Assembly: GCA_009760855.2 (NCBI GenBank)
Contig: WPIO01000073.1
Location: forward strand, 1,601,501 to 1,665,500
Direction: 5' to 3'
DNA length: 64,000 nt
DNA from: Cristatella mucedo
Lineage: Eukaryota > Bryozoa > Phylactolaemata > Cristatellidae
Part shown: positions 1,159-61,255 of the stretch, in pieces
Numbering within the stretch: the first letter of the stretch is position 1
Layout of the letters: the number at the start of each line of letters is the position of its first letter
The notes under the pieces: generated by a model
Database searches by the model: none
The model's input: only the letters and a program-made list of their open reading frames with translations
What the model was told of the DNA's origin: nothing
Translations under genes and position numbers: made by a program

Positions 1159-2800
1159 ATACAGTGATCTGAGAAAGTAAGTGTAATTTACACCGATGAA
1201 AATATTCCAACCTCTGCACGAAACTTGTGAATGACTATCGAATCCACGGAACGTCAATTGCATCGCTAAGTTAATCCACTCCTCTTCATAGGAGTTTGTA
1301 ATCCAAGAGGGAAAGAAGCACCGAGCTCCAATCGTCCAATGGCTGTTCTGACTGCTGGATTCCTTCTTCAAGTATCTTTTTCAAGGCTCTACCTATTAAA
1401 ATCATCGATGGAGAGTAAGCACAGTGCATGCAATCAGCTCGATGTGAACAATGAGGCCGTATGGATATCAAACACACGCTTTCAGCGAAAGCAACGAAGA
1501 TTTTGATGGTAGCTCCGTGAACGAATTTCAGAATCGTGTCCAGCATGGTTTTCACAAGTTTTAAAAGGCTTGCGTTTTTCTTCTTGCAAAGGCATGTGAA
1601 GCTGGCAACACATGTAGCATTAAATAATAAATTATAACTATTGTCTGACCCAAAAGCCTTATTTTGTTAGTGGCACAAGACCCTTAATGGCTTTAACCGC
1701 CACTTGCAGCTGGCAATAAAGGATTGCCCGCTGCCTAATTCAAACCCACGACATCAGTTGTGAAAAGAGAGCCCCCTTACCTTCTTGGCGATCAGGGCTC
1801 ACTATCATAATACAAATAATATAGCGTGAAAACTACTTGCTCTGAAATATTTCGCACCGATGTTATGTTTTAAGGATTGAGCGGCATCACATAAAGATTA
1901 GATAGAGTTTGAAAAGCGACCACAGTTTAATTAAAACAAATTCTCAAATGATTGAATGACATGGAAACCAAGGTACTTAACGATTAGCTTAAGTCATGCA
2001 GATCTAATTGAACAGCTTGCAGTTATTCTTCTTATGCTACATGATGAATTATACCAAGAGGTAGAGCCAGAAGTGGGCAGTGGAATTTGGCCTCCCATCA
2101 AGATCCCGGGCGGTGGGACACTACCGCTCGTTGGATCAGGACAGAATAGGATCGTGGTAGGAGCAGCTGTCTAGGAGTCTCTTCGGAATGGGCTTTTTCG
2201 CATATCCACTTCCTTCAGTTAAGCTCTCACACACTGTAATTGCAAGCTATAACTTTTTCAAGACTTTCGGAACTCGTCATACATTATAATCTTGGCGCTC
2301 CCTTGTAATTCTTCATAAAATGTCGGTGTCTGATAGCTATGCCAATAATGATTACAAATATGTCATCTCTTTCGCTTTTGAATTGATTACATTAATAAAA
2401 AGGATGGCATACATTTTCGCATTTTGTAAAACATACGAACGGTTGGAGTGAGCACGACCACTTCAATCTTACGCAAAGATTATCAATGGTTCTTACTCTT
2501 ATATATTGTCAAACTTGACATTTCTAATTTCGTAAAGATGATGTCCTCATAAACACTGATGATACTAAAATTACCGGATTTGAAGCTTAAGTGCTAGCTA
2601 TCAACTTGGAGGACGAAGTCCTTCGTCGGATCGACGTCACGAGAAGCTCGCAGCTACGTCAAGTGAGTACTTTATGAAGTACTCCTGCAACGTTAACGGT
2701 ACTTCACTGGCAACTAAAGAAAACTCGTGAAACCGGCAAGGCTTAGTAGTCGGCGTCTTGTCACGCCAATAAAAAAACCTGTACGGTAGCGAATTTACAG
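1159..2800. repeat. Block D, unit 1 copy (start of the large tandem unit)
   Basis: This block is repeated at about 23470-25380, 38400-40330 and 59700-61255, always directly after a LINE-A 3' tail and in the same orientation. It carries the 3' exons (E7, E6, E5) of the minus-strand gene and an old SINE at the same internal position in all four copies. The unit 1 copy lacks about 200 bases that follow the LINE tail in the other units. From about 2690 to 3250 only unit sequence shared with 25340-25860 is seen, with no gene beyond the listed exons. Confidence 0.75.
1685..1806 (-). mobile_element. tRNA-derived SINE, old copy in block D
   Basis: Read on the minus strand there is a tRNA-like head (A-box region near GCCAAGAAGGTAAG, B box like GTCGTGGGTTTGAA), then the family body with the CTTTATTGCCAGCTGCAAG stretch. 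The same insertion is found at the matching place in all four D blocks (24245, 39180 and 60685), so it predates the tandem duplication. Confidence 0.7.
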
Positions 2801-3462
2801 TTAGAGTTTCAAGTAAACCGGTCGCACTGAACTATTGGAGATGTTTGGAAAACATGATGCCCTGTTAGAGTGCAAAATGGAAAATTTCACTATGTCAGTG
2901 TGTTTGCGACTGCAAGAAGGTATATTTTTACGATCTATTGAGCATTCCTTCATTGAGTATTTTTCTATACAAGAGTTTTCCAAAAAAAGTTTAATTGGCA
3001 ATTACTCGGCATTCATTCTTGCATGTGAACATCTGATGAATCTTTTTCGGTTAATTACAAGCAGGCTTGCTAATTTAAGCCTGGATGCTTAGATCGTTCC
3101 CCAACACCACCGGTAGCGGCGATCTATTCTGTCTATCGGACAGTAAAAGGGAGCTTCGAGTGGCCATATTTGAAGTTTAGCTACAAGTTTGTCGCACTGC
3201 GGGCCCTAATGCATGAGCAGCATCTATCGAATCCTTTGAAATGACCCAAGTGGTCTGCTCACCGTGGGCACGAATCACGGCTAAAAATTATCGCAAAGCC
3301 TTGGGATACTTGCCAGTGACAGCCACTGTAGGTAGATCGGCCCTAACAATTTGTGCAGTAGTTCCTCGTAGATCGACGTGGTCTAATCACAAATCTGTTC
3401 GGGCTCATCTGAGATCCGCAATGTTTCTCGTGCGACGCTATGCCCACTACAGATAGCACGCC

Positions 3463-3845
3463 AGCAGCAGCGTTAGAAAGCTCTGCGTTGGGCTGCTGCT
3501 CTTGAATCTCAGCAGATTGATCCAGGCTATTGGCAGATCGATCCAGACTCCTCGAAAATTGAGGCGGTCTCGGCATAGATCGAGCCGAGCTCTTCCGAGA
3601 TCGGTGCTTCCTCTCAACTGCCGGGGTGCACATTGCCAGGGAGAGTGGTGCAGGTGTCTCCTCGGCGACGTTGCTTTGTCCGGACAGTCCACAAGCAGCA
3701 GCAGCGTTACAAGGCTCTGCATTTGGCTGCTGCTCTTGTATCTCAGCAGATTGATCCAGGCTAGTGGCAGATCGACTCAGACTCCTCGAAAATTGAGGCG
3801 GTCTCGACACAGATCGAGCCGGTCTCGTCCGAGATCGATCTAAGC
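3463..3845 (-). repeat. In-frame 234-base tandem duplication inside exon E3 of copy 1
   Basis: Positions 3463-3610 and 3697-3845 are nearly the same sequence, 234 bases apart, equal to 78 codons, so the frame is kept. Each repeat encodes the peptide RPPQFSRSL followed by a serine/arginine-rich stretch with SLDQSAEIQEQQPNAE. Copy 2 (26600-26800) has a single version. Confidence 0.75.
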
Positions 3846-4746
3846 TTGTCAAAGATCGATCCATGCTCGTTGTCGATGGTTGTATTCTTTCCTGTTTTCT
3901 TTGCCGAGATTGGTCAGTGCCACCTCTGCTGCAACTACTTCCGCTTTCCTGCCTAGCTTTGGCGGAAATCTCAAATTTCCTGTAATATTCCTGATCAGGA
4001 AAAAGCTGGCCTTGCTTAAAGTAGAAATTATCCAAACTAATTCTGTGCTCTTCTATATCTGTCACTGCAAAGATAACTCTCTCTAGGTTTCGTGGCCCTG
4101 CTCATGCATGCATGCCTACTGACAAATATTTATGCTGCAGCAGAGAGATCGTACTCACGGTGATTTACGACGTCTACTTTGGACCTCTGAAATACGGAAG
4201 AAACCGCAGCCAATCATAACGTACAGATATAACTTTTATAACGAATTATAACACATGACGCTCTGTCGCATGCTAATATCATTTGCTATGGGCTACTGAA
4301 TGCTATACCTTAGAGAAGTACAGTCACTCTCTTGCAAAATTACGCACAGATAGATGCACACTAAGTTAACAGATTACTCATCATTCTCTTTTTCTCTCCC
4401 TTTCTCTGTATATTTCTTGCTCTCCCCCCTTTCTTTATACCTATATTTGCACTACAGGTAGATATAAATATGCATACTTCCTCCTCAGAACTTACCAACC
4501 AAGTTTTCGAGTTAGGCGGCAGATAATATATGTCAATACGTCTGCCTTCGCTTCGAAGGCTAGACTTTCTAAGCCATCCTAAAATTGAATGCATCTCAGT
4601 TAGCTTTGTGCAGTAATCTTGAAAGAGATTTACTGGAGAGAGCCTCATTTTACCATATGCAAATGGAAGCAGGTAATTTTCATCGACAGTAGGTGCTCCA
4701 TCTGAAACGCACAAACAAATTACTAGTTTTTACTATATATATAAAT

Positions 4747-4748
<2 letters not shown>

Positions 4749-4785
<37 letters not shown>
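4749..4785. repeat. (AT)n microsatellite
   Basis: About 18 AT dinucleotides in the intron between E1 and E2 of gene copy 1. Unit 2 has a shorter AT tract plus a LINE-B insertion at this place (27704-28085). Confidence 0.95.
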
Positions 4786-4787
<2 letters not shown>

Positions 4788-5404
4788 TACATGCTTGGAT
4801 GTATATATAAGATTACTTATCAGGACGAGGTTAAATTTAAATGTATATAAATTATTAAAATATCTAATGCTTAATGAATCGATAATGAACCTTTGGTTAT
4901 ACCACACTCCTCTAAAAGTGGAATATGTTAACAATCTTGTCCTACCTTTTTGCAATTGCGAAAGTATTTCGCTAATCAAGGCCCGAGATTCAACGCTCTC
5001 TTGATTTTCTGAACCGGTTCCACCTGTAGGATTTGGAGCACCGGCTCTGCTTATCACAGCAGCATTCCGAGTTGCCACTCTAGTTTCGCCTGTAGCATTT
5101 GGAATTGCAACGCTGGTTCCAGGCGATGCTTGCTGCCGATGGTCGCTCGACGGTCGATCGTCGGTTAAATCTGCTTCAATCTTTTTCTTATTTTTATGCC
5201 TTTTCTCCTTCGTTTTCGTTTCGTTCTTATCGTTGGCCTTTCGTTAGAGGCCAAGTCTCTGGTTACTGGACTGTCGCCAAATGGTGTGGCTCCGTGCCGG
5301 ACAACCTCTGGTTTGATGTCGGGTACCAGCTGCGCCTCATTGGTACGAGAAGAGTCGCCGTCCATAGCGGTCGATGCATGGCTGAGCTGTTTATCGCCGC
5401 TCAT

Positions 5405-7540: not shown

Positions 7541-8988
<1,448 letters not shown>

Positions 8989-9576: not shown

Positions 9577-10411
9577 TCAGGCGGTTCCTGCTGGCCACAT
9601 CCGTGCGAGCCCCGTTGGCCGGTCTCTTGAGCTCGTGGCTGGCCGATCGATCTCGCGCTGTGAGAAGCATTCCGGCTGATCATTATGGCCTCGCCGTTCT
9701 CTGATTCCCTCCGAGTCGATCCGTGGTTGTGCTGCTCTGCGCCTGGAACTATCGCAGGGAACTATCGCCTCGCCGCTGACCACTACCGTCTTGCAGCCGG
9801 AAGCCGTCACGTGCTGCTTCTCCTTCGTCTCCGGCTGCTACCACACTTGTATTGTTCTGGCTCTTTTCGGCTTAATGGCCGCTATGTCGGAAGTGGTTTC
9901 ATATCGGCTTCCTCCGACGGTGTCGCCATCGCTGCTGCAGCTGAGTGAGTTCCCCTCGTCTGTCTGACTCTTGCTGGCAGTTGCCGGTGGGATCGACGTC
10001 TGATAAAGCTGACTAGTCGCTTAGTTTTGTCTAGGTCTCGGCTCCGGCGAGCTGCTCCTTTTCCTGCCGAAACCTCTCGGCCTCAAGCTCGGCATCTTCA
10101 TCCGTCAATCACGTGAACGTCATAATTAACTCATTTCGCAACTTGTGGTAGTCTTGCTTTACTTTAGCCAGCCGATCACCCCTACCGTATATCGAGTTAT
10201 TGCCCAGACACACTGCCACAGCATGTTTTACCGGCATCGCATTGTTTTGCCTTGCTACGGCCTTCTCAAGCGTTAGAAGCCAAGGCATAAAGTACGGTCC
10301 GCCTCTAAACATTTCTTAACTCAGTATTTGCGTCCCATCTAGACCATAGAAGGTCCAGTACTCTTTTCGGCTCAAGTAAACTATTCTCTGCTGCCACTTG
10401 ATGTAAGCCAT
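9577..10411 (-). pseudogene. LTR-1 internal ORF remnants, function unknown
   Basis: Starting directly inside the terminal repeat at 10411 a frame reads MAYIKWQQRIVYLSRKEYW, crosses a TAA, then continues with GGPYFMPWLLTLEKAVAR and a coiled-coil-like DAELEAERFRQEKEQL; a separate ORF lies at 9577-9810. Unit 2 (33380-33674) keeps the same frames with different stops, and has AGGTAAGA where unit 1 has AGTTAAGA. It may be a gag-like product of LTR-1, but no zinc knuckle, protease or RT is seen. Confidence 0.35.
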
Positions 10412-17540: not shown

Positions 17541-19648
17541 CGTGTGACAGGCAAGGCTGTACAGAATAATAATGGTATTGTATTCGATGTTATAATATTA
17601 AAAAATAAATAAATTTCAATATTAAATTCCAAAAATACAGGATAAGGCAATATTCTATGCCACCAGTGCAATATATTGCACATCTTACGCATCACGTATT
17701 GCAATTTATTGTCTAGGATTGTATCAATCCTCTTCATATTCGTCTTCGTTCTCTTCCTTATCATCAGCTGTCTCTGAGTCATTTTTATTCAATATCAAGG
17801 CGACCAGGGCCAAACTCCACAGTAACTTTTTTTGATTCAGAGAAAGCCGTGCCTGCAACATTTTGGGTTGCAAACTACGACGTTGATGACAGAACACTCG
17901 CTTTGCCATGGAGAAAAATCTCTCTAACTCACATGATGTTGGAGGCAAGAAGCGAGTGCTGATGTACTCGCTGCATGCTTTTTTCTCTTGAGCACGCTGT
18001 CGCTTGAATGCTCGCTCAGCAAAAGACAATTGAGCATCATCATCTACTTCATCATCTGAGTTCTGAGCTACAGGTAGCAACAATTGTTTAATAGAACGTT
18101 TTTTCATGAGTTGTAAGAGTGTTCTCCATTTTTGCTTGTATCTTGACGTTTGCCGTCTTCAAATCTTTGCTGTGAATAATATTTGCATCGTTGCCAAGAT
18201 AGTGGTCGAAGCCAAACTCTGGATATGAGTCCATGATCGATCGGAATAAAACACCCGATTCTTTCAAGGACATGTAGCGTTGCTGCAGCCCTATCGTAAC
18301 AGATTGCTTGCGATCCAGAATATTCCTTTTCTGCCCAGCTGTGGGAACAAGTTCTATTATTGGATCATCTGCTTTATCAAGATTTAGGAGTCTTTCGAAG
18401 TGCTGAAACATATAAGGAACGCTTCTCCAGCGGGTGAAGTTGCATTTGACTGGGCACAGCGATGTCGTCAAGCCCATTCGTCCTGACTGTTTGAGTGTTG
18501 AAAACTTTGTTGACAACGTTGACATGAGCTTCCCAATCAACTCCGATTCGATCGCGTTGAACATGCTTATGTATGCCTCAACAGCAAAATTAAAACGGTG
18601 ACTGTGGCATCTAAGAAGTGGCACACCAAGAAGGTCCACTGTTGCCTTGTTGGTTCAGCAGTTGTCCCCAATCAAACAGAAAAGGCAGCCGAAAGACAAG
18701 GAGTACCACTCAAGTAACGATTTAATTAAATTCGCATGGTTTTTGGCAGTGAAACTCGTCTCGTGAAGAAGAAGTTCGAAGGCCAGCAGATGAATTTCAT
18801 GATCAGCAGCATGTCTAGCCAGGGTAGACGACAAAATGACCAATAAAGTGTTTTGAATCCTCAGACCAGCCATAAAACGCAAGAGCGAAGGTTGTAGCAG
18901 TAGCGACCTTGGCAGACATATTTTTTCCACCGCCTCTAACAGCTTGAACATATATTTCTCGAGTGTTTTTACAGAGATAGGCAGCAGTTTTGTATTGTTT
19001 TGGGTGAGCTCTTCATCGCAAACGATCAATTAGAGCTCACCCATACCGATCCATTCCAGCTATTTGAATAACTTGCTTTATCGAATATCAAGCGTGTAGC
19101 CGAGGAGGTCTGTCCAAATGCTGATTTACCAGTTCCGGTGATGACACTTGCTGTTTCGGATTTGCCGTCTCCATGTGCTTGCTGCGCCAAGTGAAACATT
19201 TCTAGATGATTCGGGTGCTTTTCCTGGATGTGGGTTATCAGATTATTTTAGCCGACCTTAATTTTATGTTTGCTAACAGTTCCACAAGTGCATCTCCACG
19301 TATTGACTTAGAACTAACAGTATTCTTGCCAAAGTAAAGCTGACAGAACATCTTGTCGTCAGATGAGACTGCACGACGAGAACTTGAACTCGACATCCAA
19401 AGTTAGCGACCTCTGAGGCATAAAATGGCACCACCACGACTGTACATGGTTGTGCACTTGGACAATTGTGATAGTTCAAAAATGATTTATACTGATATAT
19501 GTCCAGATATGATTTCAGTTGGATCTTTTCAAATATGAAAAGTTAATTTATGTATTTTTACTTAGTTGGTATCGCGTGACAGAAACGAAGAGGTTAACAA
19601 TAATACCTTAATCTATAACAATTTATTGTTCAATATAGTGGTACTGTC
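17541..19648 (-). mobile_element. hAT DNA transposon relic
   Basis: Unit 3 runs through this point without the insertion (about 54005-54050), so the block 17541-19920 was inserted in unit 1, or lost from unit 3. It holds a hAT-type transposase pseudogene and, at its right side, a SINE. I could not define matching terminal inverted repeats or an 8-base target duplication by eye. Confidence 0.65.
17724..19300 (-). pseudogene. hAT-family transposase, broken
   Basis: The protein would catalyse cut-and-paste transposition. Segments in order: BED-finger-like remnant near 19200-19300 (LITHIQEKHPNHLEMFHLAQ), then 19029-18655 ending at GDNC, 18639-18088 (starts MDLLGVPLLRCHSHRFNFAV), and 18107-17724 with the C-terminal dimerisation motif TSCELERFFSMAKRVFCHQR followed by LQPKMLQARLSLNQKKLLW. 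The GDNC and CHSHRFN pieces are typical of hAT proteins. Defects: in-frame TGA at 18655-18657, a frameshift near 18100, and stops in the N-terminal finger region. An acidic tail (DEYEED) closes the ORF. Confidence 0.85.
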
Positions 19649-23465: not shown

Positions 23466-25700
23466 TATTGTGATTGTTGTTATGAAGGCCATGTTCGTAA
23501 TGGCCGCTTGCACAGTTGGCCGGAATTACTTCGTATTGACAAATTTTTTTCTGCCATGTTCTTTTTTTCGGAGCTTCGCAGCTGGCACGTTTGTGCCACA
23601 ACTTGAAAGATCTACAAACTCGAAATGTATTCGAATTGTAACATCAAACCGACAGGCTCTTAAGTTAAGATCATTCGTACGATGTAAGAGATGCTTAGAT
23701 AATTATTTACATTAATTCAAATCTAGGGAAATCTGACAAACAAAGTTTAATGTAAGATGATGAAATTATGCCAACCTCTACATGAACTTTGTGCATGGCT
23801 AGCGAATTCACAGATCGTCAATAGCAATGCTAAGTCAATCCACTCCTCTTTAGGAAAATCTTGTATCCAAGATGGAAGGAAACTTGAGCACTGTGCCCAA
23901 TTGTCAAATACCTGCTCTGACAGCTGGATTCCTTCTTCAAGTACCCCTTTGCAAGGCTCTGCAAATTTAAATCGTAGATGGACAAGCTAGTAAGCGAAGT
24001 GGATGCAGTCAGCAAGGTGTGAACAATGAGGCCGTCAGGATATCAAAAACACGTTTTCAGCGAAAGCAACAAAGATTTTGACGGTATCTCCGTGATCGTA
24101 TTTCAGGATCATGCCTAGCATGGTTTTCACGTTGTAAAAAAGTCTGGCGTATTTCTGATTATAAAGGGATGTGAAACTGACAAGACATATAGCATTAAGT
24201 AATAAGTTATTACTATAAGCTGACGCAACAGCCACATGTGGGTAGGTGTAAAAGAGCTTTAGTAGCTTTAATCACCGCTTGCTGCTGGCAATAAAGGATC
24301 GCCTGCAGCAGAATTCGAAGCTACGGCATCAGTCGTTAAGAGAGAGCACGTTATTTTCTGGGCTATCACGGCTCACTATTATAATAAAAATACTGTAGCA
24401 TTCATAATACTTTTGCTAGAAATATTTTGACACTGACGTTATGTTTTAAGAATCGAGCAGTATTACGCTAGAAAATAGATTGAGCTTGAAAATTGACCTG
24501 CCTGTTCACCAAGATTTTAATACGATTGAACGACATGGATACCAGGGTACTTAAAGATAAGATTAAGTCGTTTACGTCTAATTTTACAGCTGGCAGTTAA
24601 ACTTCGTATGCCACACTCTGAATTATACCAAGAGGCAGAGCCAGAAGTGGGCTATGGAAATGTAACTCCCATCAAGAGCTCGGGAGGTGAAACACTCTCT
24701 GGAAGCCCGTTGGATCAGGACGGAATATGATCTTGGTCAGGAGCTGTCCTGTAGGAGTCTTCGGACCTGGCTTTTTTAACGTTTAATTCCTTTTAGCAAG
24801 CTTTCAGACGCTGTGATTGCATGCTATAACTTTTTTAACACTTTTGGAACTTGACATACATTACAATCTTAGCACTCCCCTGCACTTTTTTATGCAAACG
24901 TAGGTCTCTGATAGCTATATTAATAATGAATACAAATATATACTCCCTTCCAGGTTTTGAACTAATTACGCTATTAAAAAATTTGACATGAAATTTCATT
25001 TTTTTTAGGAAAATATGCGTGGTTGGAGTACACATGATCACTTCAACCTCATTCAAATAGCATCGATGGTTCTTACTTTTGAATGTTGACAAATCTAACA
25101 TTTCCGATTTCGAAAACCATGTTGACTTCGTTATCACTGACGATGTTAAAATCATCGGGTTCGAAGCTTCTTACATACTCGCTATCAACTTGGATGGTAA
25201 ACTCCTTCGTCGGATCGACGTCACGTAAAGCTGACGGCTTAAGCCACGTGATTACTCTGTGAAGCACTTCCTGTTGTCCTGCAATGGTAACAGTACCGTC
25301 ACGTGGACACAATAGACAGATGTAGTTGAAGGACGTGAGTACCTCATGAAACCGGCAAGGCTAAGTAATTGTCGTTTCGTCACGGAAATGAACATTACTG
25401 TACGGTAGAGAATTTCACGTTAGGGTTTCAAGTAAACCGGTAACACTGAACTGTTAGCAGTGTTTCGAAAACATTATGCTCAGTCAGAGCACAAAATGGA
25501 ACACTTCACTTAGTCAGTGTGTTTGCGACTGCAGGAAGGTATATATTTACAGACTAATAAGCGTTCCTTCATTGAGTATTTATTGATGCAAAGGATTTTT
25601 GCAGAAAGTAATTTTAATTAGCAATTATGCATTACTAATCCTTGCATCCACGTTCATCTCATAAGCCTTTACCGTAAATTAGGAGCAGGCCTGATAACTA
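23466..25700. repeat. Block D, unit 2 copy, with flanking unit sequence
   Basis: Carries exons E7, E6 and E5 of gene copy 2 on the minus strand and the old SINE. The first 220 bases (TATGAAGGCCATGTTCGTAA onward) are shared with units 3 and 4 but not unit 1. Confidence 0.75.
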
Positions 25701-27341
25701 AAGCCTGGATGGTTAGATCGTTCGTAATAGCAATCGGTAGCTGCTATCCGTTCGGTTTATCGGACCTTAAAGGAAGCTTTTCGTGTACAGGTTTGAAGTT
25801 TAGCTACACGTTTTGTCACACAGCTGGCCCAAATGCCGGAGCAGCATGCATCGAGCCCTTTGAAATGACCCCAAGCGGTCTGACAACCCCCGGCACGAAT
25901 TAAGTCTGATTCCCTCTCCATCAGATCAGCTAACAAGATGATGACTCGATCAGCAACGTACTGCAAAGAGTTAGTCTTTCTGCTCGAAGTTTAATTGCGA
26001 AGCCTAGAGATACTTGCAAGTGAGGACCATTGTACATCGACCCTAACGACTTGTGCAGTTGCACGGAGAGCAGCTTATTGCTGACATCTCTACTCTACAG
26101 CCATCTAGTGGTTCATCGCGAGCATTAATCGTTTTTCGTATTTTAAACTGCGATTCTAAGCGAAAGCGACGTCGTAAACAGGACAGCTCACAAACAGTTT
26201 TAGCCAGAAGTTCCAAGCAGATCCTAAAGCTTCATGAAGTGCTCAGGGTCATTCAGGCAAATGCTGAAGCGACTGTTAAGAATAACAAGTTTACGTTCGC
26301 ATTAAAAAGGCTATCGCCGACCGGACAGGTAAGGAAGCTTGTAAAAAAAAATCGTCACCTAAGGCATCGTCAGCTGCCGTCGAATCTTCCATCGGTAACT
26401 CCACGCGATAGGAGAGCCCGGTGGCTGCAACAGTGACTCGCTGGCTGGTGCTCCTACTTGTCCTTATAGTTTCTGACATAGGCGGAAGTGCTTCCACTGC
26501 AGAGGTGGACACAGCAGGGGTGCCAATTACGTGAAAAGAATGAGGTTCAGGTGTCTCCACTTTATCTGTGCCCACTGCCGGGATGCGCATTTTAGACGTG
26601 GCCTCGGTGGCGGATGCTGAAAGTCCGCCAGCAGCAGCCGTAGAAAGCTCAGCGTTTGGCTGCTGCACGTGTATCTCAGCAGATCGATTCTGGCTGGTGG
26701 CAGATCGACCCGGACTCCTCGAAAATTGAGGTGGTCTCGACACAGATCGAGCCTTTTTCGTCCGAGATCGATCTAAGCTTGTCGATGATCGATCCAGGCT
26801 CGATGTAGATGGGTGTATTCTTCCCTGGTTTCTTTGTGGCGATTGGTCAGTGCCACCTCTGCTACCACTACTTCCACACTCCCAAATGGCTTTGGCGGAA
26901 ATCTCAAATTTCCTGTAATATTCCTGATCAGGAAAAAGCTGACCTGGCTTAAAGTAGAAATTATCCAAACTAATTCTGTGCTCTTCTATATCTGTCACTG
27001 CAAAGAAAAATCTCTCTAGGTTGCATGGCTCTGCTCATGCATGCATGCGCACTGACAAATATTTATGCTGAAGCAGAGAAATCGTACTCACGGTGCTTAA
27101 CGACTTCTGCTTTGGACCTCTGAAATACGGAAGAAACCGCAGCCAATCACAACGTAAAGATATAACTTGTATGACGAATTGTAACACATGACGCTCTGTC
27201 GCATGCTAATATCATATGCTATGGGCTACTTAATTCTATAACTTTGAGAAGTACAGTCGCTTTCTTTCAAAATTACGCTCAGATAGATGCACACTAAGTT
27301 AGCAGATTGCTCATCATTCTATCTTTCTCTGTTCATTTCTT

Positions 27342-27387
<46 letters not shown>

Positions 27388-28714
27388 TTTCTGCATACCT
27401 ATATTTGCACTACAAGTAAATATAAATACGCTTACTTTCTCCTCAGAACTTACCAACCAAGTTTTCGAATTAGGCGGCCGATGATATATGTCAGTACGTT
27501 CACCGTAGCTTCGCAAGGTAGACTTTCTAAGCCATCCTAAAATTGAATGCATCACACTTAGCTTTGTGCAGTAATCTTGAAAGAGATTTACTGGAGAGAG
27601 CCTTATTTTACCTAATGCAAATGGAAGCAGGTATTTTTCATCGAAGGTACGTACTCCATCTGAAACGCACAAAATAATTACTAATTTTCAATACATGTAT
27701 CTATATATATATATATATATATATATACTTATATGTAATGTAATTTAATGTATCTCATTCAGTAACTCCACAAATTCATAAAGACCAAAGTGGGTGTTAC
27801 GCAGGGGAGTTTTGTATAGCGCACTCACAGCCTAAGCGGCTTTCGGTACGCATTCGGTACCCAACAGACTTCGTCTCACGCAGCAAAGAGAAAGTGGGAA
27901 GCATAGCAGAGTTAGGAGAGCAGTTGAGGTAGTGAGTAGCATTGAAGTAGCAGTTTAGGACCGCTGAAAAAGATGTGCCATAGTCGGCAGTTGGAGAGTA
28001 GATGTCGTTGCGTAAGAATTGTGGAAGCGAGTTCCACAGTCTAGGACCTGCAGAGCTAAAGCTTCTGTCGCCAACTGTATATATATCTATGCTTACTTAT
28101 CAGGACGAGGTTAAATATAATTGCATATAAATAATTAGAATATCAAATGCATAATGAATCGATTAGAAATCTGTGGTTATACCGAAATCCTTGAAAATCA
28201 GAGTCGCTGTTAGCAATCTTTGCCTACCTTTTTGCAATTGCAGAAGTATTTCCTCAATCAAGGCCTGGGATTCGAAGCTTTCTTGATTTTTTGAACCGAT
28301 TCTACCTGCAGGATTCGGAGCACCAGCACTGCTTTTCGCAGCAGCATTCGGGGAGGCTACACTGGTTAGGTCTGCTGCATTCGGAGTTGCCCGGCCAGTT
28401 TCTTCTGCAGCATTCGATGTTGCTAAGCTGTTGTCAGCCGATGCCTGCAGCCGATGGCCGCTCGACGGTCGATCGTCGGTTAAATCTGTTTCACTCTTTT
28501 TCTTTTTTTTATGTCTTTTCTCTTTCATTTTCGTTCTTAACATTGGCCTTTCGTTAGAGGCCAAGTCTCTGGTTACTGGACTGTCGCCAGATGGTGTGGC
28601 TCCGTGCCGGACAACCTCTGGTTTGATGTCGGGTACCAGCTGCGCCTCATTGGTACGAGAAGAGTCGCCGTCCATAGCGGTCGATGCATGGCTGAGCTGT
28701 TTATCGCCGCTCAT
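23780..28714 (-). CDS. Unit 2 copy of the multi-exon MBD-like gene (best preserved)
   Basis: Proposed exons in order: E1 28714-28228 (MSGDKQLSHAS start, serine/alanine-rich, KEKRHKKKKK basic patch, phase 1 end at AAAAAG^GTAGGC); E2 27659-27454 (206 nt, TTTCAG^ ... TTG^GTAAGT); E3 26997 to about 26400 (RS/SLDRS-rich); E4 25960-about 25890 (after TTTGCAG, YVADRVIILLADLMERESDL); E5 25278-25077 (acceptor CATTGCAG, donor GTAAGA; EFTIQVDSEY, NEVNMVFEIGNVRFV); E6 24176-about 24050 (acceptor TTGTCAG; KTMLGMILKYDHGDTVKIFV); E7 23958-about 23780 (acceptor TTTGCAG). Phases fit at E1/E2, E5/E6 and E6/E7. E2 and the start of E3 resemble a methyl-CpG-binding domain, so a nuclear chromatin-binding role is possible. 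At E2/E3 the strongest acceptor gives a stop; a weaker one upstream (CCTAGAG^) keeps the frame. Whether it is expressed is unknown. Confidence 0.45.
24245..24382 (-). mobile_element. tRNA-derived SINE, old copy in block D, unit 2
   Basis: Same insertion as at 1685, 39180 and 60685. It is degenerate: the B box region reads GCCGTAGCTTCGAATTC on the minus strand. Confidence 0.65.
25701..26060 (-). repeat. Unit segment holding E4, nearly the same in unit 3
   Basis: From about 25860 to 26050 this stretch differs from 40790-40980 at only a few positions, far fewer than in neighbouring parts of the same units. It includes the E4 acceptor and open frame. Unit 1 has only a shortened, diverged form (3180-3350). 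Confidence 0.6.
26155..26332 (+). CDS. Candidate plus-strand exon opposite the gene, unknown protein
   Basis: An open plus-strand frame reads KRKRRRKQDSSQ, VLARSSKQILKLHE and AEATVKNNKFTFALKRL, and is followed by a good donor (CGGACAG^GTAAGG at 26329-26334). In unit 3 (41085-41265) the same frame follows a good acceptor (GTATTTTCAG^) and ends at GCTCAG^GTAGGG, but has a stop (TAA) near the end. In unit 2 the acceptor is changed to TTTTAAACTG. It could be an exon of a second gene running opposite to the MBD-like gene, or a remnant. The basic N-terminal run suggests nuclear targeting. Confidence 0.35.
27342..27384. repeat. (CT)n microsatellite
   Basis: About 21 CT units in the intron after E2 of gene copy 2. 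The same intron in unit 1 has only a mixed pyrimidine run (4385-4435). Confidence 0.95.
27704..27729. repeat. (TA)n microsatellite
   Basis: A short TA tract next to the LINE-B insertion in the intron between E1 and E2. Confidence 0.9.
27740..28085 (-). mobile_element. LINE-B 3' end in the E1/E2 intron, unit 2 only
   Basis: Minus orientation: the 3' terminus is at about 27740 (TAATGTAATTTAATGTA tail) and the body runs to 28085. On the minus strand it encodes the family's C-terminal piece (AGGTCCTAGACTGTGGAACT, then CTATACAAAACTCCCCTGCG). Unit 1 lacks it at 4790-4810. Confidence 0.8.
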
Positions 28715-29284: not shown

Positions 29285-30610
29285 TCTAAAAATGGTCGTG
29301 CCAAAGTATTTCAAATTGATCGTTTTTAGAAAGATACCAAAAGAGTCTGGATTATATACTGAAATCCGTAAAAACCATCGTCCAGTTTTCCTTCCTCTTT
29401 GGAAGAAAATTCTTGAAAGAATTTCTGCTTAGCAGTTGTAGCACATCTTCAAACAAATGTAATTCTTATAATATTTCAATCGGATTTCGGCGACCGCACT
29501 CCCAAGAAACTGCTCTCATCTGTACAACATATTACTTAATAATCAGTAATGATGATAAGAATGCCACAGCTCTGTAAGATTTACCAGCTACCAGCAATAC
29601 TATCGCTAACAATATCCGGCTTGAACGAGTTAGAACAACAATTGGTCTTACAGAAGAGGCCCTATCTGGTTTAAATCGTACTTGGCAGGTCGCGTATCTA
29701 CAAAGCCAGGTTCGACCGCCAGAACAGTCACCCATGGCATCCCACAAGGGCTCGTGGAATCCCACAAGGGCCCATGGAATCTGACATGGGCCCATGGACT
29801 CTCACATGGGCCCGTTCTCGGTATTTTGCTGTTTGTCGTTTATACTCAAGCTCTGGGTAAAGAGATTTAGACCCATCGAGTATGCTATAACATTTAAGCC
29901 AACGATACCAAGCTGTATTTTTTATTTCAAATGTCTGAACATGCTACGGAGATTTAAAATCTGAATGCTTGCCTTGCAGACATTCGATCCTGGATGTCGT
30001 CAAATTTCCTTAAAATCAACGAGGATTGAACGAACCCGCTACTTACAAAACACCCCAAGTGTATGGCTGGAATGGGAGGCTTTGCTCTTCAAATAGACAA
30101 CGCTGCTGCGTGACCATCCCCTTCGCTCGGAATGTAGCTGTCGGTTGATCAACGGTTACAGAGCAAACTTCTTAGGTTGACGCACGAGGCCCGCTTTGGC
30201 TTTGCTTCTTCATTCCTATCTGAATTGCTGCACTAGTTTAAGCCTCAGATCCAGAATGGAAAAGAAAGCAGTCATTCCATTGCTTCGCTTTTAGACGACT
30301 ATAGAAAGATACTATAGCTCGACAGGTCTAAGACATTTGAACTTCTGTAATTCTTACCCAGCTGTCTGAAGCTGCTAATACAGTGCGACTCACTACCTTA
30401 ACTGCTCTCCTGACTCAGCTAGGCTTCTCACTTTCTCTTTGATGCGTAAGATGAAATGTGTTAGCAAGCAATTGCTTACCGAAAGCGGTTTTGGCTCAGA
30501 GTGCCCTATACAAAACTCTCCCGCATAACATCACACAGGTTTTTGTGGCTTTGTGTAGATGCAGATGGAGATACGTTAATTTCTGTTTCACGTTCTTCTT
30601 GGTCGGTCAA
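29285..30610 (+). mobile_element. LINE-B fragment, unit 2
   Basis: Counterpart of 5980-7540 without the SINE. The RT motif region at 29735-29814 is a 4 x 20-base array; the frame then reads GPVLGILLFVVYTQALGKEI. The YADD region is already mutated. From about 30140 onward it is virtually the same as unit 1. Confidence 0.75.
29735..29814. repeat. 20-base minisatellite, 4 units, in LINE-B RT
   Basis: Four units of TGGAATCCCACAAGGGCCCA type, the same motif as the 8-unit array at 6441-6600 in unit 1. Confidence 0.95.
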
Positions 30611-32119
<1,509 letters not shown>

Positions 32120-33825
32120 TGTCTCCGGCGGCGGCTGTTCTAGTGGGAGTTTCGCGGAGACACACCGGGCGCATGTCCGCAGTAAACGAGACTTTCCTTT
32201 ATTGATATCAACGGGCGCATACATGGGCGCCCCATCAATCGCTGAAGACAACACGACCACGACATACGATTCGTAGTAGAGGCCTGATGCAGCTCCGCTT
32301 CAACGGCTTACCTATTGGCCACAGGTGAGGCATTTACATTACTGTCAGGTGCTTCGCTAATTACAGCAGCAGTAGCCCCAGGTGCACTCAACATCCCTTT
32401 CCCATGGAAAATAGATTTCCTAGTCCACCAGCGCAGCTGGGGAGGAGGCGGCACTCGCAGTTGAAAAGTCATGCAGCCATTGGCTCCCGGCGTTCTCTTA
32501 TTCTGCCTGCTCAGGCGGTGCCCTGTCCAGCGGTTTGTCGTTCGGGCTCAGCTAGGATATTAATTTAACGCGAGCGAGCTCTGACCGGCTTGGATAGGGG
32601 AGGACTATATGACAGCCACTAGCAGGAATCGCACAACAGCTCTGCCTCTCACGAGCAGCCGGTTATAAATGCTACCCAACGTTAGGCAAAGCTGGGGCAC
32701 CGATCCCACAGTCAGGCGGTTCCTGCTGGCCACATCCGTGGCCCCGTTGACCGGTCTCTTGAGCTAGCGGCTGGCCGATCGATCTCGCACTGTGAGAAGC
32801 ATTCCGGCTGATCATTATGGCCTCGCCGTTCTCTGATTCCCTCCGAGTCGATCCGTGGTTTTGCTGCTCAACACTCTGAGCCGAGACGCTCTCGCCGGTG
32901 ATCTTTGCCCCTGAAACGCTCTCACTGCTGTGCTTCGCCTCAGCGAAGCTCTCACTGCTTTGCTCGCTGGCAGCCTGGGCCTCTTTGCAGGCTGCTATGG
33001 CCTTGCCACTGGCCGCTATCTCGAGGTGCTTCTCTGTACTCAGTGCTGAGACTCTTGTGCAGGTGCTTTACACCAACAAGAAGCTCTTGCTGCTGGGCTC
33101 CAAGGTCGAGACGTCGCTGTCTCGGGCACTCTTCGCCGCCAAAATGCTCTCCGCCACTACAAAGCTCTCGCTGCAGTGCTTCGCCGCCGATAACTTGAGG
33201 CAGCTGAGCGAGTTCCGCTCGTCTGCCTGATTCTTGCTGGCAGTTGCCGGTGGGATCGACGTGTGATAAAGCTTACTCGTCGCCTAGTTTTGTCTTGATC
33301 TCGGCTCCGACGAGCTGTTCCTTTTCTAGCCGAAACCTCTCAGCCTCCAGCTCAGCATCTTGATCCGTCAAACACGAGAACGTCAGAATTTACTCACTTC
33401 GCAGCTTGTCGTAGTCTTGCTTTACTTTAGCCGGCTGATCACCCCTACCGTATATCGAGTTATTGCCCAGACACACTGGCACAGCACTATTTAGCGGCAT
33501 AGACATCTTCAGCCTTGCCACGGCCTTCTCAAGCGTTAGAAGCCAAGGCATAAGGTGCGGTCCACCCTTAAGCATTTCTTACCTCAATATGTGCGTCCCA
33601 TCTAGACCATAGAAGGTCCGGTACTCTTGTTGGCTCAAGTAAATCATTCTCTGCTACCAGTTGATGTAAGTCATTGTCTCTGGCGGCGGTTGTTCTAGTG
33701 TTGTCAAGGAGACACAGCCTGGGTAAAAGCACGGTGAACGAGACTCACCTTTATTACTCTAAACCACCTATAATGCTGTACCTCGATTACTGGCTACCCA
33801 CTGGCTACTGAACCTTGATGTCTAC
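32120..33825 (-). mobile_element. LTR-1 remnant, unit 2
   Basis: Terminal repeat 32120-32393, interior 32394-33674 and the inner part of the second terminal repeat at 33675-33825, cut by the nested LINE-A. The interior holds the minus-strand frame GGPHLMPWLLTLEKAVARL (33575-33390) and a stretch at 32870-33230 with alanine/serine-rich frames (minus strand: EAKHSSESVSGAKITGESVS) that unit 1 replaces with unrelated sequence. The right end of the element is lost through the deletion near 35015. Confidence 0.55.
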
Positions 33826-38395: not shown

Positions 38396-40640
38396 TACCA
38401 TTATTGTGATTGTTGTTATGAAGACCATGTTCGTACTGGCCGCTTGCACAGTTGGCCGGAATTACTTCGTATTGACATTTTTCTGGCATGTTCTTTTTTC
38501 CGAGCTTCGCAGCTGGCACGTTCGCGCCACAACTTGAACGATCTACAAACTCCTAATGTATTCCAATTGTAATATTAACTCGAAAGGTTCTTCAGTTAAG
38601 ATCGTTCATACGATGTTAGGGATGCTTAACTAATTAATTACATAAATTCAAATAAAACGAAACCTGACAGACTTTAATATAAGATGATGAAAATATGCCA
38701 ATCTCTACATGAAATTTGGGCATGGCTATTGAATCCAGGCATCTTCAATAGCGAGGCTAAGTCAATCCTCTTCTATTCAGACAAATGTTTTATCCAAGAT
38801 GGAAGGAAGCTTGAGCACTGTGCTCCCATTATCCAATGGCTTCTCTGACAGCTGGATTCCTTCTTCAAGTACCCCTTTGCAAGGCTGTAAAAATTAAAAT
38901 CATTGATGGACAAGCCAGTAAGCGAAGCACATGCAGTAAGCCAGTATGAACAATGAGGCTGTAAGTATATAAAAAACATGTTTTCAGAGATAGCAACGAA
39001 GATTTTGATGGTAACTCAGTGAACGTATTTCAGGATCGTGTCTAGCATGGTTTTCACAAGTTATGAAAACGTCTGGCGTCTTTCTGCTTACAAGGGGATG
39101 CGAAACTGACAACACATATAGCATTAATTAATAATTTATAACTATTAGCTGACGTCACAGCCACATTTGGGTAGGTGTAAAAGAGCTTTAGTAGCTTTAA
39201 TCACCGATTGCTGCTGGCAATAAATTATCGCCTACTGCAGAATTCAAAGCTACGACATCGGTCGTGAAGAGAGAGCCACTTACTTTCTGGGCGATCACGG
39301 CTCACTATCATAATACAGCAACTATTGCATGAATACTAATTGTACTAGAAATATTTCAATGCTGACGTTATGTTGTAACCATTGACCAGTATTGCATTAG
39401 ATAATAGATTGAGCTTGAAAATTGACCTGGCTTGTATTCAACAAGATTTCGATGCTGTCGAATGTTATGGATACCCGGGTACTTACGGATAAGCTTAAGT
39501 GGTGTAGATATAATTGTACAGCTGGCAAGTAAGCTTGGCATGCACAAGTCTGAATTATACCAATAGGCAGAGGTACAAGTGCGCAATCAAATTGTGCCTC
39601 CCATCAAGAGCTCGGGTGGTGGGACACTACCTGGCCGCCCAACTGATCAGGACGGACTAGAATCTTGGTCAGGAGCTGCCTTGTAGGAGACTTTGAAGCT
39701 GGCTTATTTTAATGTCTACTTCTTTTTAGTAAGCTCTCAGATGCTGTGATTGCATGCTGTACATTTTTGAAATACTTTCGGAACTTGACATACATTACAA
39801 TCTTAGCACTCCCTTGCACTTTTTATACAAGCAAACGTAGGCCTGTGATAGCCATGTTAATAATGACTACAAATACATTATCTCTTCCGGTTTTTAAATT
39901 AATTACGTTATTAGAATAGATGGCATGAAATTTCACTTTTCGGAAAATATTTTCAGTTGGAGTACGCATGATCGCTTCAATCTTATTCAAACAGCATTGA
40001 AGGTTCTTACTTTTGAATCTTGACAAATCTGACATCTCCGATTTCTAAAACGATGTTGACTTCGTTATCAATGACGATTTTACAATCATCGGGTTCGAAG
40101 CTTACGTACTCACTATCAACTTGGATGGTAAACTCCTTCGTCGGATCGACGTCAGGTAAAGCTGACGGCTTACGCCAAGTGATTACTCTGTGAAGCACTT
40201 CCTGTTGTTCTACAACGGTAACGGTACCGTCACGTGGCTACTATAGACAAACGCAGTTGAAGGATGGAAGTACCTCATGAAACCAGTAAGACTAAGTAAT
40301 CGTCGTCTCGTCACGAAAATAAACAAAACTGCACGATAGAGAACTTAATGTTAGAGTTTCAAGTAAACCAGGGACATTGAATTGTTAGAGATGTTATAAA
40401 AACATGACACCATCAGAGTGCAAAATGGAACACTTAGTTAGGTCAGTGTGTTTGAGACTGCAGGAAGATATATATTTACAGTCTACTAAGCATTCCTTAA
40501 TTAAGTATTTATTGATACAAATGAATTTTTCTAAAAGTAATTTTAATTAGCAATTAATCGGCGCTAATCTTTGCATCCACGTTCATCTTATGAACCTTGA
40601 CCGTAAATTAGGAGCAGGCCTGATAACTAAAGTCTGGATG
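38396..40640. repeat. Block D, unit 3 copy
   Basis: Carries E7, E6 and E5 of gene copy 3 and the old SINE (39180-39308, minus strand). Sequence otherwise follows the unit 2 copy closely. Confidence 0.75.
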
Positions 40641-43100
40641 GTTAGATCGTTCGTAATAGCAATCGGTAGCGGTTATCCATTCTGTCTATCAGCCACATAA
40701 AGGAAGCTTTTCGTGGCCAGGTTTGAAGTTTAGCTAAAAGTTTGCCACACAGCTGGCCCAAATGCCGGAGCAGCATGCATCGAGCCCTTTGAAATGACCC
40801 CAAGCGGTCTGACAACCACCGGCACGAATTAAGTCTGATTCCCTCTCCATCAGATCAGCTAACAAGATGATGACTCGATCAGCAACGTACTGCAAAGAGT
40901 TAGTCTTTCTGCTCGAAGTTTAATTGCGAAGCCTAGAGATACTTGCAAGTGAGGACCATTGTACATCGGCCCTAACGACTTGTGCAGTTGCTAGGACAGC
41001 AGCTTATGCTGATGTGTCTACTCTACAGCCTTCTAGCGGTTCAACGTGAGCATTAATCGTTTTGTATTTTCAGCTACGGTTCTAAGCGAAAGCGACGTCG
41101 TAAACAGGACAGCTCACAGGCAGTTTTAGCCAGAAGTTCCAAGCAGATCCTAAAGCTTCATGAAGCGTTCAGGGTCATTCAGGCAAATGCTGAAGCGACT
41201 GTCATGAATAACAAATTTACGTTCGCATTAAAAATGCTATAACGCCGATCGGACAAGAGCTCAGGTAGGGAAGCGTGTAAAAGAATCGTCACCAAAGGCG
41301 TCGCCGGCTGCCGTCGAAGCTTCCATTGGTAACTCCACACGATAGGAGAGCCCGGTGGCTGCAACAGTGACTCGCTGGCTGGTGCTCCTACTTGTCATTA
41401 TAGTTTCTGACATAGGCGGAAGTGCTTCCACTGCAGAGGTGGACACTGCAGGGGTGCCAATTACGTAAGTAAAATGAGGTTCAGGTGTCTCCACTTTGTC
41501 TGTGCCCTTTTCCGGGATGCACCTTTTAGACGTCTCCTCCTTAGCTAGGCTTGTCTGTCGTGGCGTCACAGTTGCCACATCACACCACTTCTCGCCGACC
41601 TGCAATTGCTACCAGTAACGGAACGGATCGACTTCAAGGTTTTGTCGCTCACTTTTAGGTCCCTTCATTCTATGGCTCCCGCCTATCTCTCAGATCTACT
41701 CCCCCACCAGGCCAAGTATCGTACCAACCGCTTTTCGGAATCCAACAGTTTACCAATACCTTTTACAAACCTCAAATCCTTTGGAGACCCAGCATTTAGT
41801 TCGTATGCTCTCAAAGCCTGGAACTCCATCCCGACTTGCGACAGGACGTCCCCTGACTTTACCACATTTAAAAAGAACATAAAAATACATCTATTTAGGA
41901 CAGCATTTAGTGGGTCTCTTTGATTCGTCCTTCATGTGCTTATTCGTGCTGACACTTTGCATGCTGCCACTAACCACATTTGCATGCTGACCCTGTGCGT
42001 GTCACCCCTAACCATGTTATTCATGTTGTTGATCAAGCATGATATTACTCACGATTCAATCACATTTCTCTTTGCAGCAAATGTAAAGCGCCTAGAAAGA
42101 GATTGAGTTCTCTGAATGCGCTTTATCAAGTGCATTATTATGATTATTATTTGTATATCCTTTTTTCTGCTCAGAACTTACCAACAATTTTTTATTCCCG
42201 TTAGGCGACTGATGATATATGTCAATGCGGTCGCCGCCTTTTCAAGTTTTATAGATTCTTAGCTATCCTAAAATTTAATTTGCTTCAGTTATTTTTGGGG
42301 AAATAACTTTCAAAAACATTTAATGGAGAGAGCATCACGTAACCATATGCAAATGGAAGCAGGTATTTTTCCTCGACAGTAGATGCTTCATGTGAAATGC
42401 ACAAAATAATGACTAACTTTTAATATACATAGAAATGCATATATATGTATATATACGATTAGTTATCTGGACATGGTTTAATGTAACTATATAAAAATAG
42501 TAAGAATATCGCAGACATATTTAATCAATTATGAATCTGCGATTATGCCAAAATCCTCAAAATCGAAATTACTTGTAACACTCCTAGCCTACCTTTTAGC
42601 AATTGCGAAAGTATTTCTTTAATCGACGTCCATGTTTCAACCTCTCTTGATTTCCAAAACTGGTTCCACCTGCAGCATTCGGAGCTCCAGCACCTGAGTT
42701 CTCAGCAGCAATCGGAGTGGCAACGCTGGTTTCGTCCGCTTCATTCGGAGCTCTAACACTGTTGTTGTCTGAGGAAATTGAAGTGGCAACGCCGCCGGAG
42801 TCAGGCGATGCCTGCTGCTGATGGCCGCTCGAAGGGCGATCCTCGGTTCTTTATTACCTACACTTTACCTTCTGTGTACGCTCTTTCAACTTCTCAGTCG
42901 AAGACTCTCTAGCTTAATCATCATAGGCCTTTCAATGGATACCAAGCCTTCGGTTTTTGGGCCGTCGGTGGATGGCGTGACACCGTGCTGGACAACCTCC
43001 GGTATGTCATCGAGTACCAGCTGCTCCTCATTCGTAAAACTAGAGTTGCCATCACTGGCGGTCGATGCCCGGCTGCCTTATTTATCGCCGCTCATTCCTT
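38750..43100 (-). pseudogene. Unit 3 copy of the multi-exon MBD-like gene, broken
   Basis: E1 about 43098-42593 (ATG followed four codons later by a stop: MSGDK then TAA); E2 about 42391-42182, where the acceptor AG has become AC although the GTAAGT donor is kept, and the MBD-like frame is lost; E3 about 41530-41280 only, because a LINE-A is inserted at 41532-42152; E4 from 40889; E5 40209-40011 with intact acceptor (TTGTAG), donor (GTAAGA) and frame (EFTIQVDSEY); E6 from 39105; E7 from 38884. Clearly not a functional full-length gene. Confidence 0.5.
41532..42152 (+). mobile_element. LINE-A 3' end inserted in exon E3 of gene copy 3
   Basis: A relatively young 5'-truncated copy: the C-terminal frame is open from 41606 to 41923 (LPVTERIDFKVLSLTFRSLH, AFSSYALKAWNSIPT, HLFRTAFSGSL) and ends at a natural stop before the 3' UTR and a TTATTATGATTATTAT tail. 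It shows the undisturbed C-terminus that is frameshifted in the copies at 1-1158 and 45030. Confidence 0.85.
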
Positions 43101-48905: not shown

Positions 48906-48929
48906 ATACCCTATATTTCCATACGCCGA

Positions 48930-59700: not shown

Positions 59701-61255
59701 TCATTAGTATGATTATTATCATTATTTTTATGCACGCACTGTTCGTGCCGGCTACTTGCACAGTTGGCCGTTATTTCGTCCCGCTGAAATTGTGTGGACG
59801 TGTTCCTTTTTTGCGGAGCTTCGCAGCTGGCACGTTCGTGCCACAACTTTGACGCTCTACAAACTCACAATTTATTCAAATTGTGATATTAACGGGACAG
59901 GTTCGTCAGTTAAGATCTTCTATAGTGTTTGGGGTGTGTGAATAATTCATTTCATAGATTCACAACCAAAGAAAATATGAAAAAAAAAGTTTAATTTGCA
60001 CTCATGAAAATATGCACACTTCTTCTTGAAACTTGGGAATTGTTATTAAATCTAAGGATCGTCAATAGCAATGCTAAGTCGATCCACTCTTCTTCAGAAG
60101 AATTTTTAATCCACGATGGAAGGAAGCTTGATCATTGTGCTCCAATCGTTCAGTGGCTTCTCTGACAGCTGGATTCCTTTTTCGAGTATCCCTTTGCAAG
60201 GCTCTACAAATTAAAATCATTGATGAGCAACTGAGTAAGCGAAGTGCATGAGGTCAGCCAGATGTGAATAATGAGGCTTTAAGGATATCAAAAAGTCCAT
60301 TTTTGCAATGGCAACAAAGATTTTTATGATAGCTCCATGAAAATATTAGTATCATCAATCAGTGGTCGAAACGAAATCTTCAAGCAGTTGCTTACCGTAT
60401 CTGCCCGCCCGCCTGTCAGCCCCTTACCCTTCGGCTAAGACCCACGGTCACTAACCACAAATTGCCATCACTGACATTGCCATAGCAGCACTTGGCACGT
60501 GAGAGCTTCCTGCACGGTGCTCTAAAGGTCGTGTCTAGCAGCTTTATACAAGTTATAAATAAACTTTGGGGTTAGTCTGCTTACTAAGCGATGTGTAACT
60601 GACAACACATATAGGACTAAATACAAAACTGTAACTATTAGCTGATCCAACTGACATATTTACATAGTGGTAGAATAGCAATAATGGCTTTAACTACCAC
60701 TTGCAGTTGGCAATAAAGAATCGCCTACGGCAGATTTCGAAGCTAAGACATCGGTCGTGAAGAGAGAGTCACTTCCTTTCTGGGCGATCACGCTCACTAT
60801 CATAGTACAGCAACGAATACTATAAACGAATACTTGCATGAATACTACTTATGCTGGAAATATTTAGATGCTGACGTTATGTTGTAACCATTGAGCAGTA
60901 TCGCATTAGAAATTAGATAGAGCTTGGAAACTGAACTGGCTTGTATTCAACAAGATTTCAATACGGTTGAATCATATGGCTACCAGGGTACTTTAAGATA
61001 AGCTTAAGTCGTGTAGATCTAATCGTACAGTCGGCAGTTAGGCTTCGTATGCCACAGTCTGATTTCTACCAAGAGGCAGAGCAAGAAGTGGGCAGTGGAT
61101 TTTTGCCTCCCTTCAAGAGCTCGGGCGATGGGACACTACCTGGCCGCCCGTTGGATCAGGACGGAGTAGGATCTTGGTCAGGAGCAGCCTTCTAGGAGCC
61201 ATCGGAGTTGGCTTTTTTGCATGTCTTCTTCCTAGTGCAGTTCCACAGGCTCTCA
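59701..61255. repeat. Block D, unit 4 copy, truncated
   Basis: Counterpart of 23466-24800. It carries the acceptors of E6 (exon from 60598) and E7 (from 60203) of a fourth gene copy and the old SINE (60685-60803, minus strand). An insertion of about 190 bases sits at 60345-60535. Similarity to the other units stops at about 61255, before E5. Confidence 0.7.
60050..60598 (-). pseudogene. Unit 4 remnant of the MBD-like gene (E6, E7 only)
   Basis: E6 begins after TGTTGTCAG at 60598 and E7 after TTTGTAG at 60203 (SLAKGYSKKESSCQRSH then a stop). E6 is split by the local insertion. The exons further 5' are absent because the unit ends at 61255. Confidence 0.4.

Follow-up and report, generated by a model that had tools for sequence, protein, structure and literature searches.

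Is the block of exon-like segments that recurs on the minus strand of a bryozoan contig a gene and, if so, to which family does it belong? The block lies in a 64,000-nucleotide (nt) stretch of the Cristatella mucedo genome, hereafter the window (C658:1601501-1665500; contig WPIO01000073.1), from an assembly of 572 Mb in 688 contigs. A preliminary description had proposed an undescribed-looking multi-exon gene amplified with a repeat array. Sequence comparison indicates, with a probability of about 0.83, that the block represents a genuine spliced gene from the animal family with a methyl-CpG-binding domain (MBD) and that both tandem and inverted duplications have copied it on C658. Other contigs of this genome carry dispersed, predicted MBD genes of similar exon layout. 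The preliminary description correctly sensed a family, which is of a known kind, and the interest of this family lies in the MBD expansion and in the mix of open and decayed copies.

Exon structure of the unit B gene

A whole-genome protein search with E2–E7 of unit B (310 residues) returned 27 matches, all on C658 at 1.60–1.74 Mb (26 of 26 candidates scored). The C658 cluster comprises eight loci, A–H, about half of which are decayed. Units A, B, C and D lie inside the window, all on the minus strand. The unit B gene consists of the following segments, given in window positions.

28714..23776, minus strand: unit B gene, multi-exon, open through E1–E6
28228..28714, minus strand: E1, 487 nt, ATG start, lysine-rich low-complexity sequence, phase 1 donor AAAAAG/GTAGGC
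27730..28078, no strand assigned: high-copy repeat in intron 1, found in at least 35 places on other contigs at 95–97% identity (a lower bound, with 40 of 6982 candidates scored)
27612..27659, minus strand: E2a, 48 nt, first part of the MBD (LLPFALG)
27454..27536, minus strand: E2b, 83 nt, MBD core (GWLRK...DIY...KTWL)
27092..27119, minus strand: E3, 28 nt (RSKAEVVKH)
26359..26997, minus strand: E4, 639 nt, end of the MBD followed by a long S/R-rich tail
25077..25278, minus strand: E5, 202 nt, no known domain, open in B, C and F
24053..24176, minus strand: E6, about 124 nt, 3' end uncertain
23776..23956, minus strand: E7-like segment, E6 junction and downstream end not established

When unit B is spliced at GT donors and AG acceptors, exons E1–E6 form one continuous reading frame. 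Most of the splice signals listed in the preliminary description recur between copies. Units A, B, E and F have TTTCAG in front of E2, whereas C has lost it; GTAAGT follows E2 in all five aligned copies, and GTAAGA follows E5 in A, B, C and F. An AG directly precedes the CCTTG of E7 in five of five aligned copies (A, B, C, D and F). TTGTCAG upstream of E6 is confined to B, C and D, with TTGCCAG in A and no counterpart in F.

The layout of seven segments required revision, with E2 divided into two exons and E3 set at 28 nt. E2a and E2b are separated by an intron of 75 nt in B and 80 nt in E and F. The split is supported by the divergent paralogue H, in which an intron interrupts the same codon in the same phase, and by the five extra bases of E and F, which would break the frame and fall inside the intron. 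Without this intron, the Pfam MBD match of A is also longer, and its score rises from 27.4 to 31.9 bits. The E2a, E2b and E3 exons measure 48, 83 and 28 nt, respectively, in A, B, E and F; the corresponding lengths in H are 51, 101 and 28 nt. Exons E1-E2a-E2b-E3-E4 have fitting phases in B, E, F and H, where E2a, E2b, E3 and E4 are entered in phases 1, 1, 0 and 1, respectively. The entry phases of A differ because its E1 is out of step. The codon-phase fits reported earlier at E1/E2 and E5/E6 hold in B, and that at E6/E7 holds in B only if E7 begins at AGAG/CC.

The flanks of the domain are repetitive. The lysine-rich E1 contains a long array of 11-residue repeats (minisatellite) in E and F, and S/R-rich repeats continue E4, which reaches 1554 nt in these two copies. 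The predicted exon structure is not a product of chance, because A, B, E and F share their splice sites and exon lengths, as does the divergent H with two lengths changed, and because the spliced product passes the domain threshold in A and F. To this extent a real multi-exon gene amplified with the array is upheld. As a description of the window, "amplified gene" is an overstatement, since B is the only one of its four units that is open through E1–E6, and A, C and D are broken.

The MBD encoded by the spliced exons

Spliced E2a-E2b-E3-E4 pieces exceed the curated cut-off of the Pfam MBD family (PF01429; 21 bits) in three of four copies, with 31.9 bits in A, 29.3 bits in F and 23.8 bits in a 135-residue piece of H. 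The whole E1–E4 product of F also passes, at 24.6 bits. The Pfam MBD in the spliced E1–E4 thus points to a gene of the MBD family and not to one of an undescribed kind, a label that now fits only E5–E7, which have no passing match in Pfam or the PDB. No single exon of B scored above the Pfam threshold. Four exons, among them one of only 28 nt, together encode the domain, so scans of single unspliced frames miss it here, a warning for annotators.

In the PDB, the matches of A that rank next after designed TPR proteins are a MeCP2 homologue (1ub1; E value of 0.011) and MBD2 (E value of 0.026), all of them weak. The R, D, Y and R residues that we take to be the methyl-CpG contacts of MeCP2 are kept in A in the 1ub1 alignment. 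The same four presumed contact residues are kept in B and F, as read from the MBD alignment. Designed TPR proteins rank above these matches (E values of 0.0005 and 0.0033) and were rejected as relatives of A, the match being confined to a short stretch.

Copies on the contig

Besides unit B, the cluster contains the following copies, listed in window positions or, outside the window, in positions on C658.

1210..5404, minus strand: unit A copy, with E1 5404-4946 (frameshifted), E2a 4701-4654, E2b 4578-4496, E3 4186-4159 and E4 from 4064; downstream, E5 is decayed and has stops, and E6 (1600-1463) and E7 (1389-1210) follow, also on the minus strand
38704..43095, minus strand: unit C copy, with stops in E1 and E2b, the middle missing, the 3' part of E4 at 41545-41279, E5 at 40207-40010 and decayed E6/E7
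60021..60345, minus strand: unit D, remnants of E7 and E6 only
C658 1672.5-1678.0 kb, plus strand, outside the window: copy E, near-identical to F
C658 1714.3-1718.0 kb, plus strand, outside the window: divergent paralogue H
C658 1731.8-1737.4 kb, minus strand, outside the window: copy F, near-identical to E
C658 1741.3-1745.4 kb, minus strand, outside the window: copy G, decayed

Four loci of the cluster (A, C, D and G) are disrupted or survive as fragments, and B, H and the near-identical E and F are open. E and F form the arms of an inverted duplication, with 97.4% identity over 8.9 kb. They differ at one of 1713 exon sites (E2a–E4), at one of 480 sites in introns 2a–4 and, at the end of E1, at 22 of 208 aligned sites within and beside the repeat array. 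A large inverted repeat (C658:1668300-1681573 and 1728240-1740048; pieces 92.7 and 97.4% identical) flanks H, and a gap of N letters (1,670,001-1,672,500) lies inside one of its arms, so an assembly cause of the repeat is possible.

Unit A resembles B upstream and in E1, but F in E2–E4. Window positions 6997-9737 of unit A and 30040-32869 of unit B are 95–96% identical, and other shared parts are 74–87% identical. This contrast suggests patchy recent exchange.

Related genes elsewhere in the genome

A Pfam MBD scan of the genome gave 18 matches, several of which share the exon type GW...KL. Neighbouring exons were searched at 12 loci. Four of these (two on C46, one each on C278 and C136) have E2b, a 28-nt E3 and an E4 with ENFTF, and an E2a-like piece precedes one C46 copy. 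A further locus, L038, has a weak E3 and E4, and at the other seven the two exons were not both seen within the fetched flank. The C46 MBDs score 54–55 bits in Pfam (54.3 bits for the C46 product), and their closest solved domains are those of BAZ2B and BAZ2A (7win, E value of 1.5e-7; 5agq, E value of 1.5e-6). C278 and C136 share 98% identity over 3.1 kb, so they may represent one locus in two haplotypes.

A genome search with the C46 product yielded 31 matches at E values up to 10. Matches at E values up to 0.001 lie on eight contigs (C46, C136, C278, C319, C354, C400, C561 and C570), weaker ones lie on C376 and C60, and the presumed BAZ2-like C66 is also among the matches. None of the 31 matches lies on C658, and the link between C658 and the dispersed genes therefore rests on pairwise similarity and shared exon layout. 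In single comparisons, A and H are each 33% identical to C46 through and past the MBD (E values of 9e-11 and 4e-10, respectively), and the A type is 30% identical to H (E value of 1e-9). From their motifs, we take the MBDs of C66, C299, C111 and C222 to be BAZ2-like, SETDB1-like, MBD2/3-like and MBD4-like, respectively. Several frames at C561:336873-339717 align with the dispersed MBD gene across exon junctions, most of them with internal stops, like decayed intronless copies.

Selection and the state of the cluster

The ratio of nonsynonymous to synonymous substitution rates (dN/dS) between B and F is below 1 overall (0.62; confidence interval of 0.42–0.94; 272 codons), and the limits of single pairs and parts include 1. 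A ratio near 1, named in the preliminary description as a refutation, was not obtained for this pair as a whole. For B and F, the ratio is 0.54 (0.29–1.15) in the MBD core, 0.67 (0.34–1.39) at the start of E1 and 0.69 in the middle of E4. The A–B pair gives 0.56 (0.28–1.21). For the dispersed genes, four pairs of C46a and C46b with C278 and C136 give 0.23–0.24 (lower limits of 0.10–0.12 and upper limits of 0.45–0.50), and the values for two recent pairs, 1.33 and 0.58, have wide limits.

Several results weigh against the interpretation of the block as a spliced MBD gene with relatives elsewhere in the genome. No Pfam MBD match up to an E value of 1 was obtained for B, with either the spliced piece or the joined E1–E6 (537 residues). 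Full-length H (354 residues) matched no Pfam family up to the same value, and the assignment of H therefore rests on the piece, the similarity to C46 and A and the exon layout. The second arginine of the presumed contact residues is absent from H in the MBD alignment. Some MBDs are reported not to bind methylated DNA (PMC2917364). The MBD core gives a dN/dS of 1.22 (0.40–6.45) for A and F, with few changes. Introns 2a, 3 and 4 diverge by 3–14% among A, B and F, similar to or below the exons, which implies either weak constraint on the cluster or a signal obscured by gene conversion. The earlier contrast between conserved exons and introns with unit-specific insertions holds in part, the intron 1 repeat of B being such an insertion. 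The near-identity of E and F extends to their introns and so says nothing on selection. An MBD tree of 12 rows has long branches and one starred branch (A, B and F) and does not unite the C658 and dispersed genes. The tree neither supports nor rejects a common origin, a claim that depends on exon layout and pairwise similarity.

A rival reading is a graveyard, in which an MBD gene was once active and all C658 copies are now pseudogenes with frames kept by chance. The broken A, C, D and G, the weak dN/dS signal, the lack of a detectable MBD in B and an E/F near-identity that reflects recent duplication or conversion all count in its favour. The open frames speak for the opposite, with 936 codons in F, 903 in E (5' end in the N gap), 428 in B and 354 with a stop in H. 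The neutral chance of acquiring no stop, counting stops only and not indels, is small for F (0.0165 at 5% divergence and 0.0015 at 7.5%) and not tiny for B (0.118 and 0.036, respectively). With the confidence interval of the B–F pair also below 1, we consider a complete graveyard possible but on balance unlikely.

For the spliced and duplicated MBD gene that we prefer, the likely role, judged from the predicted domain, is that of a DNA-methylation or chromatin reader. The predicted protein would bind methylated CpG, or chromatin or RNA in the manner of a TAM domain, through its MBD, and its disordered tails may recruit partners. Unit B would be an open copy with a diverged MBD, and A, C, D and G would be decaying by-products of array amplification. 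A broader scenario is speculative and, in our estimate, improbable. It holds that MBD readers whose repeat tails are hypervariable form a family specific to one protostome lineage, which is still growing and arose partly through local array amplification with gene conversion. The family would act in genome defence against a dense load of long interspersed elements (LINEs), with the fast copies as an arms-race front and the dispersed copies as a conserved core.

Exons E5–E7

Joined E5–E7 matched no Pfam family and nothing in the PDB at E values up to 10. A sub-threshold match of E7 alone to DUF5575_N (E value of 0.12) was rejected as noise. The junction between E6 and E7 is uncertain. Near the end of E6, B has a GT in the weak context gtgttt, A also has GTG, and C, D and F have none. 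A U12-type intron, considered because ATATCC follows E6 in A, B and D, was dropped, as no fitting branch site was found near the acceptor.

These segments might instead belong to a separate, decayed neighbouring gene carried in the same unit, a tentative alternative that we think rather doubtful. The GT donor of E4 is present in B, C and F, E5 has an AG acceptor, the E4/E5 phase fits in B, and the segments follow each other in the same order and at similar distances in B, C and F, with traces in the older copy G, all of which tie E5–E7 to the MBD gene. In favour of a separate gene, H ends in E4, E5–E7 have no passing match in either database and are broken in most copies, their last junction is unsettled, and the search with B E2–E7 found them on C658 only.

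Transposons and neighbouring sequence

That the segments are pieces of a transposon open reading frame with an MBD-like domain is very improbable. In favour of it, LINE-like and hAT pieces abound in the region, the related MBD gene occurs on eight other contigs at E values up to 0.001, and the C561 frames run across exon junctions as retrocopies would. Against it, even divergent copies retain the spliced structure and its 28-nt exon, the dispersed branches have low dN/dS (0.23–0.24), and no transposition domain appeared in the Pfam matches of the frames scanned between E1 and E7, which were B's exons, its joined product and three antisense frames. The hAT match and the LINE-like frames adjoin the gene.

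A hAT transposase remnant borders an array unit at window positions 17724-19029 (Dimer_Tnp_hAT; E value of 9.9e-5 on 17724-18158). Reverse-transcriptase-like 3' pieces, which we presume to be of non-long-terminal-repeat (LINE) type, are repeated many times (window positions 1-1160, 41543-42151, 45031-46049 and elsewhere); two of these frames gave no Pfam match. A degenerate telomere-like tandem repeat of the CCCTAAACCC type lies inside the array at 48030-48921. Antisense to E4 and the next intron, a plus-strand frame of 129 residues (26047-26436) has a sub-threshold match to the MCM4 winged helix (20.1 bits; cut-off of 24.4 bits), perhaps a fossil exon or chance. At C658:1698004-1703477, three open frames of 153–161 residues lie close together, with no clear Pfam family (best match Inv-AAD, E value of 0.013, below the cut-off).

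Comparison with known MBD proteins

The classical MBD gene commonly present as a single copy in invertebrates is MBD2/3 (PMC8857923), and few MBD genes are described for invertebrates and annelids in PMC8857923 and PMC11292947. Against this single gene, one genome here contains an eight-locus MBD cluster and related genes on eight other contigs. A partial literature search by titles and the starts of abstracts found no publication on this gene, which does not prove it unpublished. If expressed, the family would allow one to ask which functions additional DNA-methylation readers have in an invertebrate and whether their number tracks the load of transposons. A methylation context appears to exist in this genome, but it is thin. 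Exon-sized DNA-methylase matches lie on C687, C539, C64 and C306, with a weak and broken one on C570, and the observed/expected ratio in a 204-kb stretch is 0.83 for CpG versus 1.27 for GpC. Contig C3 contains several long intronless cytosine-methylase frames and looks bacterial, perhaps a symbiont or an assembly contaminant. A COX1 piece of 600 bases translates well with mitochondrial table 5 (AGR as Ser and ATA as Met at presumably conserved places), which points to a protostome host, and an 18S copy (L057) appears degenerate.

MeCP2 and MBD2/3 share with the cluster gene an MBD recognized by sequence. The presumed MBD2/3-like gene of C111 is separate, and its domain intron lies elsewhere than in the cluster gene. 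With introns at other places in the domain and no other Pfam family in F, B and H, membership of the cluster gene in MBD2/3 is not indicated; the E1–E4 product of F likewise matches no Pfam family besides MBD.

BAZ2/TIP5 proteins combine an MBD/TAM domain with DDT, PHD and bromodomain modules. The MBDs (TAM) of BAZ2A/TIP5 and BAZ2B align with the dispersed MBD in the same motif order, down to the NF.F end. The MBD of C66, which we take to be BAZ2-like, has exon borders other than those of the cluster gene. The TAM domain of BAZ2A is reported to bind non-coding RNA (PMC4446428), which would be an alternative role for the cluster gene. No DDT, PHD or bromodomain and no Tudor or pre-SET/SET domain was found in F E1–E4, in the joined E1–E6 of B or in H, a result limited to these products because the exons downstream of E4 in F and in the dispersed genes were read only in part.

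The presumed SETDB1-like MBD of C299 also differs from the cluster gene in its exon borders. In bdelloid rotifers, the amplified SETDB1 proteins keep their Tudor and SET domains (PMC8885841), neither of which was found in the E1–E4 product of F or in H. The amplified SETDB1 of bdelloids is nevertheless also an invertebrate expansion of MBD proteins, there tied to transposon silencing (PMC8885841).

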